The position numbers and the translations under genes are program-made. This document shows positions 4,967-32,691 of a DNA stretch of 64,000 bases, in pieces. The notes beneath the pieces were generated by a model. It had not been told where the DNA came from and ran no database searches. It saw only the letters and a program-made list of their open reading frames with translations. Source of the stretch: a virus. The stretch covers positions 62,001 through 126,000 of IMG/VR virus record IMGVR_UViG_3300015265_000001; one strand, written 5' to 3'. How positions within the stretch are numbered: the stretch's first letter is position 1; each line of letters starts with the position of its first letter.

Positions 4967-5030
4967 GATATCTTTTTCCACCGCCGGCTTCATTACTATG
5001 AGGCATGGTTTTTATAAAGGGGTCTAGAAG

Positions 5031-12111: not shown

Positions 12112-14130
12112 ATGAGTCTGAATACCGGTTCCGAAAGCACTTCCTGGAACGAGAACAAGCCTACCGAAAACGCCAACCAGGCTCCAGGTGCTACCGGCAC
12201 CATGGCTCCGCTGGATGGTCTGGCCGGCCTGCTGCGTCTTCCTTCGATGACCTCCGACAACCGCAACCTGAAGGAAGTGGCCGAGACCATCGAGAAACTC
12301 GAAGGCATTTACGAGAATGCCAAGAAATCCACCACCAACGAGCTGCAACGCAAAATCGTTCCGACCGTTGAAATGCTGACCCCGTCCATCTCGGCTCAAC
12401 TGCCGGGCGTCGGTCTGTACGTTGTCTTCGACGGCACCATGTACGTAATGGCCGCGCTGTTCTACAACCGCACGCTGAGCATCGGCGTCGAGCGCATCAC
12501 CGTCAACGCCAACAACATCATGCAGCAAATGTCGGCGCCGCTGACCCCGGCTCAGTACCCGAACAACGTGTTCCTGGAAAAGCTGACCTCCCACTACACC
12601 AAAGTGGCCGAAGCTCAGGGCGTGAAGAACGTCAGCGTCATCAACATGATCGTCGTCGACCTGGAAATGCTGCACCACCCAGAAGCCGGCGATCCGAAAG
12701 ACTGGGCTCACCGTCAGGCGAACTACATCGCCTCCGAGTGGGAAGAAGCGATCATGGTCAAGACCGTTCGCGAAATCGTGGCCAAGGGTTACAACATCCC
12801 GGCTCCGTTCGCTACTCCTGACCAGCCATACGGCAAAGACGGCTGCGCCGAAGCCCGCGTTAACGCAATCAGCTTCCGCGCCAGCAAGGCCGGCACCCTG
12901 ACTCCTGACAACATGGAAGTGATCGTTTCGACGATCAACAACAACAACCAGAGCTCCGGCAACTTCCAGGCGAACTCGAAAGAGATCATCCGGGTTACCG
13001 CTGCGGTCAGCCTGAACGGCGTGTCGTGGGAAGATCACCAGCGCTTCATGATGTCGCACCGCTCGCAAGAGCAAATGAACGCGCTGCAACAGTTCCTCGG
13101 CAACTCCATGGGCATGGGTGTCTACCCGTCGGGCTTCAAGCCACTGCGTCCTGTGATCACCGTCGGCACCGTTCAGGCCGGCGAGCAACTCTGCAACAAC
13201 GGCGGTCTGTTCCCGTTCTTCACCGGTCTGTACTCGCTGATGGCGACCAACAACCAGTACGTCTGGTCCGAAGCTCTGCGCCGTCACAGCGTTGGTGCTC
13301 GCGGTAACCTGGCCGACCTGGAAACTCGTGTCGATCAAATGGTCGGTCAGATCCCTGGTGGCTTCCAGAGCCCAGCGCGTATCCGTCTCGACGAGAAGAA
13401 AATGTCGGACACCGAGCTGGTCAACAACTGGATCCGTCAGAACGTTTCGCCGCACGCAACCTTCCAGATCAACCTGATCCCGGCCGGTCCAAATGCGTCG
13501 ATCAACAACTTCTTCTTCCAGCTGGCCAAACAAGGTCAGAACGCGGCGGAAATCAAAGTTGTTATCGCTCTGATCGATGCCATGACCAAAGGCGGCATGT
13601 CCGAAGCCATCCGCGACAACATCAAAGCTGGCACTGGCTGGGTACCGTCCAAACCGGTACTGATCCCAACCGGCATGATCGCTGTCAACGGCCTGGCCGA
13701 GTACGCCGGCAAGAAGTTCAACACCCAGGAACTGGACGAGATGATGATCTCGCACATCAAGGGCCCGAAAGGTCAACTCGCAGCCGAAAGCCTGCTGTCG
13801 ACCATGTACGGCACCGTCCCGGGCGAAGAGTTCAAGCAACGTGCTCAGAAGCTGCGCGTGGAAACCGGTTCGTCGCTGTTCGACGGTCAGGTTCACATCA
13901 ACGGCTGGGCTCAGCCTCACATCTGGGCGCCTGACTTCATGGCCACCATGTCGAAAGCCATGGACTCCATCGGTCAGCTGAACGTTGCCAACAACCTGGG
14001 CAGCTGGCGCAACACCAGCCTGGCTTCGACGCCTGGCATCGGTCTGGCGACTCTGGTTGGTGCTGGTTCGAACAACGCCACCGGCAACGGTCTGGGCGTG
14101 GCGTACAGCATGAACATGCCGTTCATGTAA
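12112..14130 (+). CDS. chmA: Chimallin-like phage nucleus shell protein
   Basis: This 672-residue soluble protein has a flexible Ser/Asn/Pro-rich N-terminus (1-30), a folded body and a Gly/Asn/Ala-rich C-terminal tail (about 640-672), as expected for chimallin, which uses terminal segments to tile into the closed lattice round phage DNA. Three lines support the call: it lies directly before an RNA polymerase beta-prime N-terminal gene, as phiKZ gp54 lies before gp55; it has the best early promoter in the window; and its codons are among the most biased, indicating very high expression. Size is slightly above the roughly 600-700 residues usual for the family. The alternative is a capsid protein, less likely in this early block. 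Confidence 0.78.
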   Translation: MSLNTGSESTSWNENKPTENANQAPGATGTMAPLDGLAGLLRLPSMTSDNRNLKEVAETIEKLEGIYENAKKSTTNELQRKIVPTVEMLTPSISAQLPGVGLYVVFDGTMYVMAALFYNRTLSIGVERITVNANNIMQQMSAPLTPAQYPNNVFLEKLTSHYTKVAEAQGVKNVSVINMIVVDLEMLHHPEAGDPKDWAHRQANYIASEWEEAIMVKTVREIVAKGYNIPAPFATPDQPYGKDGCAEARVNAISFRASKAGTLTPDNMEVIVSTINNNNQSSGNFQANSKEIIRVTAAVSLNGVSWEDHQRFMMSHRSQEQMNALQQFLGNSMGMGVYPSGFKPLRPVITVGTVQAGEQLCNNGGLFPFFTGLYSLMATNNQYVWSEALRRHSVGARGNLADLETRVDQMVGQIPGGFQSPARIRLDEKKMSDTELVNNWIRQNVSPHATFQINLIPAGPNASINNFFFQLAKQGQNAAEIKVVIALIDAMTKGGMSEAIRDNIKAGTGWVPSKPVLIPTGMIAVNGLAEYAGKKFNTQELDEMMISHIKGPKGQLAAESLLSTMYGTVPGEEFKQRAQKLRVETGSSLFDGQVHINGWAQPHIWAPDFMATMSKAMDSIGQLNVANNLGSWRNTSLASTPGIGLATLVGAGSNNATGNGLGVAYSMNMPFM

Positions 14131-26021: not shown

Positions 26022-28298
26022 GTGAGTGATAAAAGTAAGGATTCTCCTGTAGAGGTCCCCCAGGTTGGGCTGGGGCGATTTAAGAAATGGGCTTACCTGG
26101 GTGAGAACCAACTCCATCCAGCAGTAATGGGCGTGTGCGCAAACCTGGTCGTGTTCCCATGGGTATCATCACCTACCCGTATTTACATGGTGGGCAACAT
26201 GATTCCAAAGGCCGTAGTGACCTCTGGAGCCAGCGAGCGTAAACTGAAGACCGGTAACGAATATCAGTACGCCAAGCAAGCCCGTTGCATTCAAGCACCA
26301 TCGAACATGACAGTCGAGGAGATCTTCTACGCTCAATCGGTCAACGGTGGTGAGGGTGACACCGACAAATGGGCGCCGGTGTATGTGGTGTTCCGTAACG
26401 AGGAAAAGGGCAAGTACGATATCATGGAGTTTCCACGATATAACGTACAAAACTCTTACGTCGGCTTCGAGTATGTGTATGACATGAACGTCATGCGCAA
26501 ACTGCGTAAGGGCGCCGTGTTCCCTAAAGGCACAATCTTCGCCAAATCACCTCGCATCAGTAAAGACGGCGAGTGGATGTTTGGTATGGACCTCAAGGTT
26601 GCTCCGGCTTCCTTCCACTATACCGAAGAGGACGGTATCGGCATTACTGAGAGCTGCGCCGCCACCAAACTGCGCTGCATGTTTGAGCATATGCGCTCTC
26701 ACGGCTGGAACGAAGATGAGTGGGTTCCGCTGACTCTGTACGGAGATAGCCCATTCCCGCAAAGTGGTGAGCGTATTCGTGAAGATGGCATTGTGATGGG
26801 TTTCCGTCGCCGTGTCTCTGCGAACGCGCTGGTGTCGCTGACCAAGAAAGCTTTGACCATCCCAGACGAGACTCACGACATCCTGTTCAGGGCGCCGGTA
26901 GACTCTGAGGTCATGTCGGTTGAAGTGATCAGTGAACGCATGAAGAACAAGTCGAATAACCGTTCGACCGAGTACATCAAACAAGCCCACACGAATATGC
27001 TGGAACGTTATGAACGTCGCCAGAATGACATGTGGAACGAAGTCATCCGCTGGCACAGTGGTCGCGTAGCGGCTAACCGCGGCAACAAGATCGCAATGAC
27101 CCGTCCGTTGAACCGGTTCATCCGTTTCGCCAAGGGTAACTATACCATCAACGCCAACACTGGTAAGCCTAACCCGCTGTTCCGTGCTGTGAAGCGTGTA
27201 CGTGTTAAAGACTGGAGTGTGACTATCCGGTTGCGTGAGATCGTATCCGGCCGTGCTAAGTTCAAGATGTCGGGTATGAACGGGGACAAAGGTGTTATCG
27301 TTCGGATTATTCCAGACGCTGACGCACCTCGTTATGATGACGGTACTGTGTGTGACGTGGTTGTTAACAACACACCAGCCTTCCGCCGTCAGATCTTCTC
27401 CATGCTGATGGAACAGTCGATCAACTTTATCAACGTCAACATCCACAAAGAAGTGGTGCAGTTGCATAAAGAAGGCGATTACGTCGGGGCAATGGAAAAG
27501 CTCATGCTGTTCTACGAAACTGGGTTCCCAGAGTTCGCGGAGTTGGTACAGCAAACGATGGTCACCCGCGAAGACATCATCGAGTACGTCAACGAAGTAG
27601 CGGCTACTCAGATCAGTGTGCATGTGCGTAGCGATACCAAGCTCTACGGCGTTGAGATCATCAAGGCCCTGCGTAAGGTGTACAGCTACAAACCTCAACA
27701 CATCACCTTCCGGGATTCCCTGGGTGAGATGGTTCGGTCGGTTAACCCTGTACTGATCACCAACCAGCACTTCATGCTGTTGGACAAGTTCGGTACGGAT
27801 ATGTCGGCGCAGTCTCTGCCGATGTCTAACCCGTTCGGTATGCCAGCCAAGCTTAACGAAGCCAACAAGTATTCCAGTTGGCTACGGATGGTCTGGAACC
27901 GTAACAAGGGTGAAACCGAAGGCCGCCTGACGCTGAGTCAAGTGGGTGCGAAAGAAACCGTTAAGCAGTTGGCAATGGGCTATGCTCCTGAGCTGCGGAC
28001 ACGGATGGCGCAACGTATTGTTCGGGCTGAAGATGGGTTTAACATTAACCAGATCATCAAGCCTGAAGAGTATGGGTTGAACCGGGCAGTGCAAATGTCG
28101 CGGAGCATGCTCAGTGACTCCGGTTATACCCTGCGTCGCGAACTGCCTTCTGATCGTTCGGATTACGAAGCACCGGATGCGTTGATTCCAAGAGCGCGAC
28201 TGGATGAACCTTTACCGGGTAACAGAACTGTTAACCCTGCCGGACTTCGTGCTGACGATGAGTTCGAGAAAGACTTTTTGCATAAGGAGACGTTGTAA
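26022..28298 (+). CDS. RNA polymerase beta, C-terminal fragment (non-virion enzyme)
   Basis: The 758-residue protein contains the conserved beta segment MSGMNGDKGVI (Lys423 equals a catalytic-site Lys of bacterial beta, family GRHGNKGVI). RIIPDADAPRYDDGT follows, aligning with the bacterial NPIEDMPYDENGT stretch, and then DVVVNN, aligning with DIVLNP. These mark the nucleotide-binding part of the beta subunit. The beta N-terminal lobes are missing and should be a separate gene outside the window. Order and content match phiKZ gp71-73. The start is a GTG with AGGAGA upstream. The stop overlaps the next start (TAATG), so beta and beta-prime C-terminal pieces are made together. Confidence 0.92.
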   Translation: MSDKSKDSPVEVPQVGLGRFKKWAYLGENQLHPAVMGVCANLVVFPWVSSPTRIYMVGNMIPKAVVTSGASERKLKTGNEYQYAKQARCIQAPSNMTVEEIFYAQSVNGGEGDTDKWAPVYVVFRNEEKGKYDIMEFPRYNVQNSYVGFEYVYDMNVMRKLRKGAVFPKGTIFAKSPRISKDGEWMFGMDLKVAPASFHYTEEDGIGITESCAATKLRCMFEHMRSHGWNEDEWVPLTLYGDSPFPQSGERIREDGIVMGFRRRVSANALVSLTKKALTIPDETHDILFRAPVDSEVMSVEVISERMKNKSNNRSTEYIKQAHTNMLERYERRQNDMWNEVIRWHSGRVAANRGNKIAMTRPLNRFIRFAKGNYTINANTGKPNPLFRAVKRVRVKDWSVTIRLREIVSGRAKFKMSGMNGDKGVIVRIIPDADAPRYDDGTVCDVVVNNTPAFRRQIFSMLMEQSINFINVNIHKEVVQLHKEGDYVGAMEKLMLFYETGFPEFAELVQQTMVTREDIIEYVNEVAATQISVHVRSDTKLYGVEIIKALRKVYSYKPQHITFRDSLGEMVRSVNPVLITNQHFMLLDKFGTDMSAQSLPMSNPFGMPAKLNEANKYSSWLRMVWNRNKGETEGRLTLSQVGAKETVKQLAMGYAPELRTRMAQRIVRAEDGFNINQIIKPEEYGLNRAVQMSRSMLSDSGYTLRRELPSDRSDYEAPDALIPRARLDEPLPGNRTVNPAGLRADDEFEKDFLHKETL

Positions 28299-30292
28299 TG
28301 GCCTTGCAAATTAACCTACGGGAGTTTGCCAACCTGAGCGAAAGCCAGGTGCTGCGTTGGCGTGGTTTCCGTATGGCCGTTGAGGTCACGGATGACCATG
28401 GCGAGAAAGTGAAGAGTGACACCTATGCCATGTTGTTAACCTGGCAGGGCATGATGATTCACCGTCAGTACAACAACGTACCGTATTCGGTAAAGGAGAT
28501 CATTCCAACCGGTAAGAGCGTCGTGTATAACAACAAGACGCTCGCCATTCCAATGAACTGGGTTATGGGTGAGATTGGCCCGAACATCCACGACCCAGTC
28601 GAATGGGATGCCATCAAGATGACCATTCACATGTGGCAGACCAAGTTGAATAACTTGATCGTGGTCATGAGTGAGACGTCGGTCATCTCTGCCATGGCAG
28701 AATCGGTAGACGACCTGATTGAAGACCCGGGTATTCGTGAGATCCATCGCAAGGTACTCGACAAGGAAGTCACGATCGATGAAGGTGAAGAGCTGTTCTC
28801 GGTTTACCTGAAGACGTCCGAAACATTGGACTACAACACGGTAGCCTTGCTGGCTCGTACGGGTGGTGTGAGTATCAACCAAGCGTATCAAACGGCGATT
28901 ATTCGAGGGGCGGTATTCGACCTCGATAACACCATCATGCCTAACCCGATCATGACTCGCTATGCGGACGGTGTAACCAACCTGGCGGACGCCATTGGTG
29001 ATAACCGTGGTGCTGGTAAGGCGCTCAACAGTAACGGCCGGGCACTGAAAGACTCGGAATGGTTTCACCGGAAGATTCACTTGTTCACGGCGATTATCCA
29101 TTCCATCGGTCACCAGCAGGACTGTGGGTCGCTTGACACGTTGCCTCTACGTATTGCGTCGACTGAGATGGCTAAGAGCTTGCTTGGCAAGTATCGCGTC
29201 CTGGAAGACGGTACACTTGATCTGATCAGCGTTAAGAACGTGAAGTCGATCAAAGCAGGCGAAGTGGTTAACCTGCGCAGTGTGAGCTTCTGTAACAGCG
29301 CAACCGGTGCACCGTGTGGTGTGTGTTATGGATCGATGAAGTCTGCGATCCCGTACAACCGGATGATGCGGAAAGATGCTAACGTTGGTATGTTTGCTGG
29401 CACCACGATCTGTAACCCATTGGGCCAGAAAATGCTGTCGACCAAACACTTTATCCGCAACGCTACCAGCAAGAAGTTCGTGCCTCATCATCGGGATAAA
29501 GAAATCATCACCTCCAACGGTGATCAGATCTTCCTCGTGAAAGACCTGTGCAAAGAAGGTACTCGACTGATTCTTAAGTCGACCATTGTGAAAGATTTGT
29601 CTGACCTGCGTTCCTTGGACATCATGGACGAGATCGCACTCAGCAAGTTGCCTTACTTTGGTGAAGTGACCTTCCAGTATGAGGTGGAAGACATCATGGT
29701 GGGCGGTACCACCACACAGCAACATCCAGCGCAGACGTCTGTGTCTTCTCGCCGTGCCCGCTTTTCTATGGGGTTCCTCCAGTACATACTGGAGAACAGT
29801 TGGACAGCCATGGACAAGAAGTTCATCTCGGTGGACCTCTCGAAGTGGAATCCCAACGACCCAATGTTTGTGTTACCCTACGTCCGTGAGGACTTGGATG
29901 CACACCGGGCTCGGGTGGAAAACTTCCTTACGTTCAACAAACGTAATGCGGCGTGGAAGAAACAAGTCGTTACGCCGAAAGTATTCGGCGAGGTGCTCTC
30001 GGAGTTCTGGACCTTGATCGATGCTGAAACTAAAGGCATCAACATGGTTTACGTCGAGGTCATCTTGGCTTGTGCGCTGACCAAGAACCCAGCGGAACAT
30101 ACGTATAAGCTGGCAACAGGACCTGGCGATAAGTACTTCTCCAGTTTTGTTACCTGTGTGGATAACCGTGGTTCGGGTACGATGTCGATCTTTGAACGGC
30201 AGCAAAACATCCTGAACCTTCCGAAAACCTTCGCGGTTAAAGACCGTCAACCAAGCGTGTTGGAATGTTTCCTGCAACACGCGGTGTCATAA
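28298..30292 (+). CDS. RNA polymerase beta-prime, C-terminal fragment (non-virion enzyme)
   Basis: The 664-residue protein carries the second beta-prime zinc site: Cys276 in QQDCGS, then Cys332, Cys340 and Cys343 (FCNSATGAPCGVCYG). This parallels E. coli Cys814, Cys888, Cys895 and Cys898. NPLGQKMLSTKHF follows, matching the bacterial EPGTQLTMRTFH switch region. The upstream part (about 185-260) would hold the bridge helix and trigger loop. It completes the beta-prime begun by the protein at 14219-15856 and corresponds to phiKZ gp74. A UUCG-loop terminator follows. Confidence 0.9.
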   Translation: MALQINLREFANLSESQVLRWRGFRMAVEVTDDHGEKVKSDTYAMLLTWQGMMIHRQYNNVPYSVKEIIPTGKSVVYNNKTLAIPMNWVMGEIGPNIHDPVEWDAIKMTIHMWQTKLNNLIVVMSETSVISAMAESVDDLIEDPGIREIHRKVLDKEVTIDEGEELFSVYLKTSETLDYNTVALLARTGGVSINQAYQTAIIRGAVFDLDNTIMPNPIMTRYADGVTNLADAIGDNRGAGKALNSNGRALKDSEWFHRKIHLFTAIIHSIGHQQDCGSLDTLPLRIASTEMAKSLLGKYRVLEDGTLDLISVKNVKSIKAGEVVNLRSVSFCNSATGAPCGVCYGSMKSAIPYNRMMRKDANVGMFAGTTICNPLGQKMLSTKHFIRNATSKKFVPHHRDKEIITSNGDQIFLVKDLCKEGTRLILKSTIVKDLSDLRSLDIMDEIALSKLPYFGEVTFQYEVEDIMVGGTTTQQHPAQTSVSSRRARFSMGFLQYILENSWTAMDKKFISVDLSKWNPNDPMFVLPYVREDLDAHRARVENFLTFNKRNAAWKKQVVTPKVFGEVLSEFWTLIDAETKGINMVYVEVILACALTKNPAEHTYKLATGPGDKYFSSFVTCVDNRGSGTMSIFERQQNILNLPKTFAVKDRQPSVLECFLQHAVS

Positions 30293-30354: not shown

Positions 30355-32691
30355 ATGAGGCAAGTCGCTACAGTATCAATGGGTCACACTTACCTGCGAA
30401 TCTTTGGGTACTACGGCGATTTCTGTGCAAAGGTTATTATTCCCTTCTGCCGTGCTCATTTGTACAAGGTTGGTAAAGTCCCAGTGCCTGGTAGCAACAA
30501 ACAGGCCTGGAAAGTAACCCACGTGTTCGCTCAGTCTAACCACGACAAAACTGAGTATCGGATTCCCGTAAGCTTAATGAAGGAATTCATTGAGTTTGCA
30601 CAATACCGGGGTTACAACCCTGCCCGGATTGCAATTGAAATAGAGCCAGAGATCGAAGGCGCTGATTGCGAATTTGAACTACGGCCTGAAATGTCCACCC
30701 CTCTGCCTGAGCAGGAGGAATGGATTGAATATCAACTGGCTGAGGGGGCGATCAAAATCAACAACGCCCCCACGGGCGGCGGTAAAGCGTTAGCCAACGA
30801 TACACCGGTCAGAACCGTGCATGGATGGCGTCCTATTGGGCAGCTCAAGGTCAATGACTTGGTCATGGCTCCTGACGGCTCTATGACGTACGTTACAGGT
30901 GTTTTCCCACAAGGGAGAACCCCAACCTACCATCTGATGTTTGAAGACCGTAGGAGCGTTGTGGCGTGCCCTAACCACCAGTGGGAAGTGCGCGCAGAAG
31001 GAGAGACTGAGTGGCAGGTTCGCACTACCCAGCAGTTGGTGGACAGTGGGAAGACTTGGTACATTCCTTTAACAGCCAGTGAACGTAATCCTGATCGTGG
31101 GGATATCATCGAACCTTACCTCATTGGTAAGACCGACCGTATCCTCGGCGAGAAATATCTGGAAGGTTCTCACTCTCAGCGGATGGCTTTGTTGCGCGGT
31201 CTGCTAGATAACGGTGGTGAGCCACAAGCTGACGGCTCGATCCTCTTCAAGACCGAATACGGTATTACGGCCAAGATGGTTCGTGACCTGGTTCGGAGCA
31301 TTGGCGGTATTGCTGAGGCCAAGTTCAGGAAGTTCAAGAACTCGGTTATTCTCCGTCATCGGACCCCGGAGATCCTCTTCACTGATGAGGCAAAACAGGA
31401 CAAGCTACGGAACTCGGAGAATCGTGATCTGGCACTGAAGATTGTGTCCATCGTCGAATCGAACCCCACCGAGACCACCTGCATTGCCGTAGAGCACCCG
31501 AGCCACTGCTTTGTGGTAAAGGACTACATCGTTACCCACAACACCTACATGAGTCTCTATACGGCCGTTAAACTCGGCAAGCGTGTTCTCATTACGGTAC
31601 AACCGCGTTACATCACCACCTGGATCAATGACATCGATAAAACGTTGATCATGAAACCAGGCGATGTGGTTGTGTGGGAAAACTCGTCGTTGCCATTACT
31701 GGGAGAAAACATCGAAAAGGGACTCCTCAATCCTAAGATCGTTATCGTGCCGTTCTCCAGGATTTCGGGGTATTTGCGTAACAACCGTAAAGACCCGGAT
31801 GCGGTTCCGCTTGGCAAGATCTTTGAACAGATCAACCCAGGTCTCCGCATTGTGGACGAAGGGCATGAATCGTTCCATGAGATCTGTCTGTCGCTGTTCC
31901 ATGGTAACGTTAAGAAGTTGATTACCAACTCAGCTACGTTGAGTGGTGATGACCCGTTCATGAATCGGATGTACAACTTCATGTTACCGATCAGTCTCAG
32001 GCTTAAGGAACCTGAACCTGAAAACTATATCGACATTGTTGCTTACATGTACCACTTGTGTCAGCGCAAGTTCTTCTTGAAGACGATGCAGTTCGGTAGC
32101 TATAACGACATGGCGTTGGAGGCGTCCATTCTGCGAAGTCCTGTCTTGACTGAGTTCTACTTCAAGATTGCGAAAAGCATGTTCATCGAGTATTACCTCG
32201 GTATCGGTGAACCAGGAGAACCGGGGTACATACCACCCATCAGGGAGCCGGGTACCAAGTGTCTGTTCTTCTTCTCGCGTATTGAAATGTGCGAGACCAT
32301 GTTGGCGATGTTTCAAAAGACATTCCCCCACCTGGACTTCTGTACCTTCCTCGGTACGAAAGATAAGAAGACTCCGACGAAGTATCTGGAGCATGAGATC
32401 GTCATTACCACGCCGGGCAGTTGCGGTACGGGTAAGGACATCCCTGGGTTGGTCAGGACGTTCTGTTTCCATACGGTCTTCTCGACCCAACGGAACAAAC
32501 AGATGATTGGGCGGCTACGTCAGTTCCGCGGCAAGTTCTCCCACTTCATTGGCAGGATCACGCCAATGTTTATCTTCGCGTTCTGCAACGACATCGGTAA
32601 GCACCAGGAGTGTTTCCAGAAGCGGCGTATTGCTTTTGCCAGTAAGGAAAAGAGCTTCAAGCTTATTGAATCTAACTGCTCGCTCAATTAA
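30355..32691 (+). CDS. SF2 DNA/RNA helicase interrupted by an intein
   Basis: The 778-residue precursor is a superfamily 2 helicase split by a protein-splicing element at residues 145-396. Joining the flanks gives a 526-residue protein with Walker A APTGGGK+T, motif II VDEGHE (a DExH box), motif III NSAT, and motif VI QMIGRLRQFRG. The intein sits exactly between Lys and Thr of Walker A, so the precursor cannot bind ATP until spliced. The helicase follows the beta-prime gene as in phiKZ (gp75 position) and probably acts in replication, recombination or transcription inside the phage nucleus. No clear ribosome site other than GGCTTTTGGT is seen. Confidence 0.88.
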   Translation: MRQVATVSMGHTYLRIFGYYGDFCAKVIIPFCRAHLYKVGKVPVPGSNKQAWKVTHVFAQSNHDKTEYRIPVSLMKEFIEFAQYRGYNPARIAIEIEPEIEGADCEFELRPEMSTPLPEQEEWIEYQLAEGAIKINNAPTGGGKALANDTPVRTVHGWRPIGQLKVNDLVMAPDGSMTYVTGVFPQGRTPTYHLMFEDRRSVVACPNHQWEVRAEGETEWQVRTTQQLVDSGKTWYIPLTASERNPDRGDIIEPYLIGKTDRILGEKYLEGSHSQRMALLRGLLDNGGEPQADGSILFKTEYGITAKMVRDLVRSIGGIAEAKFRKFKNSVILRHRTPEILFTDEAKQDKLRNSENRDLALKIVSIVESNPTETTCIAVEHPSHCFVVKDYIVTHNTYMSLYTAVKLGKRVLITVQPRYITTWINDIDKTLIMKPGDVVVWENSSLPLLGENIEKGLLNPKIVIVPFSRISGYLRNNRKDPDAVPLGKIFEQINPGLRIVDEGHESFHEICLSLFHGNVKKLITNSATLSGDDPFMNRMYNFMLPISLRLKEPEPENYIDIVAYMYHLCQRKFFLKTMQFGSYNDMALEASILRSPVLTEFYFKIAKSMFIEYYLGIGEPGEPGYIPPIREPGTKCLFFFSRIEMCETMLAMFQKTFPHLDFCTFLGTKDKKTPTKYLEHEIVITTPGSCGTGKDIPGLVRTFCFHTVFSTQRNKQMIGRLRQFRGKFSHFIGRITPMFIFAFCNDIGKHQECFQKRRIAFASKEKSFKLIESNCSLN
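30787..31542 (+). mobile_element. Class 3 intein in the helicase Walker A motif
   Basis: This 252-residue in-frame insert starts with Ala (ALANDTPVRTVHGW) rather than Cys/Ser and ends VTHN before Thr+1. It has the class 3 WCT triplet: Trp210 in CPNHQWEV (block B), Cys376 in TTCIAVEHP (block F) and Thr397 as first downstream residue. In this class the block F Cys is the first nucleophile. A single degenerate LAGLIDADG-type motif, LLRGLLDNGG (about residue 282), survives in the centre, suggesting a decayed homing endonuclease. Codon use resembles the host gene, so the insertion is not recent. Confidence 0.88.

Follow-up and report, generated by a model that had tools for sequence, protein, structure and literature searches.

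The window analysed here is a stretch of 64,000 nucleotides, positions 62001-126000 of a phage record of 226,985 bp, and it contains a helicase gene whose reading frame is interrupted by an in-frame element of 252 codons. The host protein matches the phrog_16 DNA helicase (4.4e-34), and its C-extein shares 51% identity with the ORF040 helicase of Pseudomonas phage EL; among the 272 phage records with relatives of the C-extein, the best matches are EL-type phages, at that same 51%. The gene lies after two RNA polymerase subunit genes, a gene order common to EL and its relatives, and the SF2 motifs of the exteins (GKT, DEGH, and SAT) are all intact. These motifs, the EL-type orthology, and the adjoining RNA polymerase subunit genes identify the host protein as an SF2 helicase of the phiKZ/EL type. 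Because a nuclear shell protein is also encoded in the window, we assign the phage to the nucleus-forming jumbo type. The features are as follows.

12112-14127: nuclear shell protein (phrog_4795, 2.4e-115)
30355..32691, + strand: precursor ORF, 778 aa, intein-interrupted SF2 helicase of phiKZ/EL type (matches to phrog_16 and EL ORF040)
30355..30786, + strand: N-extein, 144 aa, ending in APTGGGK, the first part of Walker A (30766-30786)
30787..31542, + strand: predicted class 3 intein, 252 aa, Ala1 to Asn252 (sequence matches, alignments, and predicted structure)
30787..31095, + strand: N-terminal part of the Hint domain, intein residues 1-103 (alignments), matching residues 1-70 of Msm DnaBi1
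30967..30969, + strand: Cys61 (precursor 205), block B:7, counterpart of Asp62 in Msm DnaBi1 (PMC6195587)
30976..30984, + strand: His64-Gln65-Trp66 (precursor 208-210), block B, with the catalytic His and the W of WCT, invariant in alignments
31096..31407, + strand: LAGLIDADG remnant, intein residues 104-207, second half only (alignment with full-length relatives)
31192-31218, + strand: LRGLLDNGG motif, intein residues 136-144, catalytic Asp replaced by Gly
31408..31542, + strand: C-terminal part of the Hint domain, intein residues 208-252, with blocks F and G
31480..31482, + strand: Cys232 (precursor 376), block F:4, predicted initiating nucleophile and C of WCT, invariant in all aligned relatives
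31534..31542, + strand: Thr250-His251-Asn252, block G, where Thr250 (precursor 394) is the T of WCT and Asn252 is predicted to cyclise
31543..32688, + strand: C-extein, 382 aa, whose first residue, Thr+1, is precursor Thr397
31855-31866, + strand: DExH motif DEGH in the C-extein, with the SAT motif downstream

The insertion in the Walker A motif

The original prediction, made from the DNA sequence, placed a 252-residue element at 30787-31542, between the Lys and Thr of an APTGGGK+T motif, and its position, length, and frame are borne out. Codons 145-396 separate Lys144 from Thr397, and the frame set by the ATG at 30355 runs through both junctions. When the element's 756 bases were shuffled 2000 times, the frame was never left open. 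When the two exteins are joined, they align with those of intein-less relatives with no gap across the junction, as is proper to an intein; these relatives are 68% (L034), 57% (L032), 55% (L023), 53% (L027), and 45% (Erwinia phage Joad) identical to the window's exteins.

The element begins with Ala and ends in His-Asn before Thr, as had been claimed, and its assignment to class 3 is likewise supported. Neither Cys nor Ser stands at position 1, the WCT triplet is present as W66 (B:12), C232 (F:4), and T250 (G:5), His64 lies in block B, and His251-Asn252 at the end is followed by Thr+1. The WCT residues, the block-B His, and the terminal HN are invariant in 20 relatives in one alignment, and a second alignment agrees. 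The triplet had been given as Trp210, Cys376, and Thr397 in precursor numbering, of which the first two are indeed W66 and C232, but the third is Thr394, the Thr of the final THN; Thr397 opens the C-extein as residue +1 and serves both as the Walker A Thr and as the predicted second nucleophile of splicing. The WCT Thr corresponds to Thr143 in the 145-residue MchDnaB1 intein (PMC7664689) and to motif position C1:5 (PMC7891396).

Profile searches of the intein, which had been proposed as a check, gave only Hint matches below threshold in Pfam and no match in NCBIfam. Sequence comparison with class 3 DnaB inteins of known structure, also proposed, yielded matches to 6bs8 (1.3e-8) and 6rix (6.5e-7). 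The AlphaFold model of the intein (pLDDT 94.4, pTM 0.90) predicts the intein fold: its Hint fold superposes on 6bs8, the class 3 intein Msm DnaBi1, with Z 20.9 and 1.5 A over 123 of 125 residues, and the model superposes on PI-SceI over about 250 residues, so that it appears to comprise a Hint domain and one LAGLIDADG endonuclease half. The nearest structures to the model by rmsd are class 3 inteins.

In our preferred reading, to which we give a probability of about 0.92, a nucleus-forming jumbo phage carries a cis-splicing class 3 intein in its phiKZ/EL-type SF2 helicase, within the Walker A loop, and this intein has lost the capacity for homing. By analogy with class 3 inteins that have been studied, and from the residues present, Cys232 would attack the Lys144-Ala1 bond with help from His64 and Thr250, the N-extein would then move to Thr397, Asn252 would cyclise, and the extein ester would rearrange to a peptide bond, restoring APTGGGKT. 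Because the P-loop is split in the unspliced precursor, ATPase activity should be absent from it, and P. horikoshii RadA, as cited in PMC6195587, offers a supporting analogy for an unspliced ATPase that is inactive.

The original prediction further supposed that this dependence on splicing could act as a timing or redox switch through the intein's single nucleophilic Cys. In fact, the intein holds three Cys residues, C61 (block B:7), C232, and C241, and the switch itself is speculative and finds no support here. In its fuller form, this idea would have splicing held back for a redox or timing cue and the helicase switched through oxidation of Cys232, perhaps by a disulfide with Cys61 or Cys241, and we consider it unlikely. 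There are precedents, as H2O2 reversibly inhibits DnaBi1, a P-loop intein of class 3, by way of a disulfide between Cys118 and Cys48 (PMC6195587) and inhibits N-cleavage of MchDnaB1 (PMC7664689), and Cys61, which is fixed in the window's intein clade, sits at block B:7, where its DnaBi1 counterpart Asp62 lies near Ala1 (PMC6195587). However, the partner Cys48 of Msm DnaBi1 aligns with a Thr of the window intein in a pairwise alignment, position B:7 varies among these inteins, some having Cys there and others Gly, His, Asn, or Ser, and Cys241 is missing in several relatives. A toggle of the DnaBi1 Cys48-Cys118 type is ruled out as such, its partner Cys being absent.

The endonuclease remnant and the fate of the intein

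Full-length inteins at the helicase site carry both LAGLIDADG motifs. Those of Shewanella phage FishSpeaker (359 aa) and Aeromonas phage AerS_266 (352 aa) share the gene, the site, and the WCT triplet with the window intein, but differ from it in having two motifs with acidic residues (LLGDGG and LLDTDG or LMDTDG). In the window intein, PYLIG is kept, the next about 80 residues of the full-length forms are missing, and the sequence resumes before LRGLLDNGG, the one weak LAGLIDADG-like motif that had been noticed at the outset and that is indeed single and degenerate. Thus the first motif is deleted, and the second lacks the metal-binding Asp, with Gly at motif position 8 (LLDNGG); this Asp is lost in all members of the window's clade that have half a homing endonuclease (half-HEN). 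Because one motif is gone and the other is without its metal-binding Asp, nuclease activity is, to judge from these residues, almost certainly lost.

The loss of activity does not extend to the domain as such. Across six pairs, dN/dS of the 104-residue remnant (intein residues 104-207) lies at 0.004-0.16, and no bootstrap upper limit exceeds 0.32. In the SNF2 and terminase inteins described below, the corresponding remnants show 0.05-0.16. All these values were obtained by pairwise counting, often at a dS close to 1 or higher, and are relied on only for their contrast with 1. In the closest pairs, the remnant is less changed than the splicing domain, which is likewise under purifying selection. 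The term decayed, as the original prediction had it, therefore describes the nuclease correctly but gives a false picture of the domain, since the remnant is under purifying selection.

The simplest reason for its retention is probably structural, as support for intein folding or for efficient splicing; purifying selection fits such a role, which it does not demonstrate. A bolder reading, which we think rather improbable, is that the half-endonuclease once served mobility and now has a function within the intein, setting the efficiency or timing of splicing, or that it acts after excision as a DNA-binding protein. Constrained remnants that have lost the catalytic Asp and the partner half occur in three inteins of one phage lineage, in the helicase, an SNF2-like helicase, and the terminase. 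One and the same site offers a natural series (empty, with a full-length HEN, and with half a HEN devoid of the catalytic residue) among helicases that share about 38-68% identity, or more, with that of the window, and this series makes it testable why a nuclease-dead HEN remnant should be under purifying selection.

Among 54 IMG/VR relatives of the C-extein, 17 have an intein between GK and T and 33 are empty; the rest are L063, with an intein a few residues upstream, and three that are incomplete or not assigned. On the extein tree of 36 rows, intein presence requires at least seven changes. With homing no longer possible, the intein would persist by inheritance and recombination.

In L063 (IMGVR_UViG_3300038673_000220, just before position 5001), the displaced intein ends in VVHN and is followed by SGK-T. 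In L016 (IMGVR_UViG_3300048924_000100), the intein is 83% but the C-extein 93% identical to the window's, and synonymous divergence is higher in the endonuclease remnant, which suggests that this intein was partly replaced by recombination. L004 (PQ516283, Pseudomonas phage vB_PQ1) was left out as evidence, as its region is split into many short ORFs, possibly sequencing errors.

These observations bear on three further readings. The degraded nuclease part might suggest that the intein no longer splices at all, so that the helicase is made as an inactive precursor and its gene is in effect a pseudogene; yet every catalytic residue is intact, and selection against amino-acid change is strong in both the exteins and the splicing blocks (dN/dS about 0.02-0.22 in most pairs), which is unexpected for a dead gene. 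Although dN/dS below 1 is not in itself proof that an intein can splice, we hold this reading to be very improbable. Equally hard to credit is continued mobility of the intein by means of a half LAGLIDADG endonuclease that has residual activity or dimerises: the conservation of the remnant under purifying selection, the patchy presence of the intein on the extein tree, and the L016 intein, more diverged than its exteins predict, would all agree with mobility, but the Asp at motif position 8 is Gly here and is lost in the half-HEN members of the clade, and the other motif is deleted. A class 2 or other non-canonical mechanism, with direct attack by Thr+1, can practically be set aside, since class 2 inteins also lack a position-1 nucleophile but W, C, T, and the block-B His are all there, invariant among relatives, and the nearest structures are of class 3. 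A class 1 intein is ruled out by the residue at position 1.

Related inteins in this and other phages

The cis-splicing class 3 intein that we favor has a close known parallel in the helicase intein of Pseudomonas phage EL (AJ697969 ORF040) and its relatives, which share the gene, the site between GK and T, the WCT triplet, and the THN end before Thr. The EL intein also has a half-HEN and a similar length (248 aa), in exteins about 51% identical to the window's. In contrast, the EL intein is itself about 35% identical to the window's, starts with Met, and lacks the B:7 Cys, and the intein tree places it in another lineage, outside the window clade.

Inteins in P-loops are classically inserted between Lys and Thr of Walker A (PMC5050341). 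The M. smegmatis DnaBi1 (6bs8) and M. chimaera DnaB1 (6rix, 6riy) inteins are also of class 3, lie in a helicase P-loop, and start with ALA, and the predicted window fold is nearly identical to theirs over the 123 residues superposed above. They differ in being mini-inteins of DnaB that have a +1 Ser and no homing-endonuclease domain, and DnaBi1 differs further by its Cys48-Cys118 redox pair (PMC6195587). The TerL1-a inteins of mycobacteriophages likewise sit in a P-loop between the invariant Lys and Thr, but in a terminase gene and in different phages, and the inteins of that survey are of class 1 or class 3 (PMC5050341). Of the 1701 class 3 inteins collected in 2020, 82.5% have LAGLIDADG motifs (PMC7891396). 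That HEN architecture can outlast loss of the active-site aspartates is seen in the P. horikoshii VMA intein (PMC8966425), although that intein is archaeal, of class 1 type, and has a whole HEN, whereas the window intein has lost one half.

Phage P-loops with class 3 inteins, and the EL intein in the same gene and at the same site, are thus known already; the window intein, not annotated before, is confirmed here as a further one. Less expected, and what our analysis adds, are the constraint that still acts on a crippled, nuclease-dead half-HEN and the occurrence in a single phage of three ATPases that each carry a class 3 intein at this P-loop position. The central work on this intein class and its origin in phages is that of Tori and Perler (2011). 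Our search of the open-access literature on inteins of phiKZ, Pseudomonas phage EL, and nucleus-forming phages turned up no article devoted to this intein family, and an earlier mention of the EL inteins may exist.

A search of the whole phage record found the two additional inteins (the L006/L007 pair), which have WCT and lie between GK and T of Walker A. Both are outside the window and without an intact endonuclease:

G000 C1:2732-3535, - strand: intein of the SNF2-like helicase
G000 C1:56630-57544, + strand: intein of the large terminase

To become active, three ATPases of this phage would first have to splice. All 23 phage records tested, which were chosen for the helicase or an intein, hold one to four such inteins. 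In the intein tree, which has some long branches and in which fine placement is uncertain, the terminase inteins form one clade, and those at the SF2 helicase site are spread over several lineages. A single origin for all of the latter, tested as one clade, is rejected (AU p 0.0005), with the proviso that some branches are long. The SF2 and SNF2 inteins of FishSpeaker (L078 and L085), from two P-loop genes of one phage, are sisters (100/98), and because of this relationship a transfer between P-loop genes seems likely from the sequences.

The gene before the helicase in phage EL has a full-length class 3 intein of its own (L083; AJ697969, C1:45455-46543), inserted between NAAGK and S. This host gene matches the window's RNA polymerase beta'-like ORF (28298-30292), and the insertion site resembles a P-loop, although the protein does not belong to the P-loop ATPases. 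At the corresponding site, the homologue in the window reads RGAGK-ALNSN and is empty.

Two SNF2-type inteins, L100 (G013 C1:39054-39857) and L101 (G007 C1:27-770), are stand-alone ORFs without extein domains; the final HN is missing from L100, and L101, near its contig end, reads HN-LCIN-stop. The C-extein of the SNF2 helicase was not found in records G013 and G007, and if the assemblies are right, these two inteins seem to have outlived their host gene.
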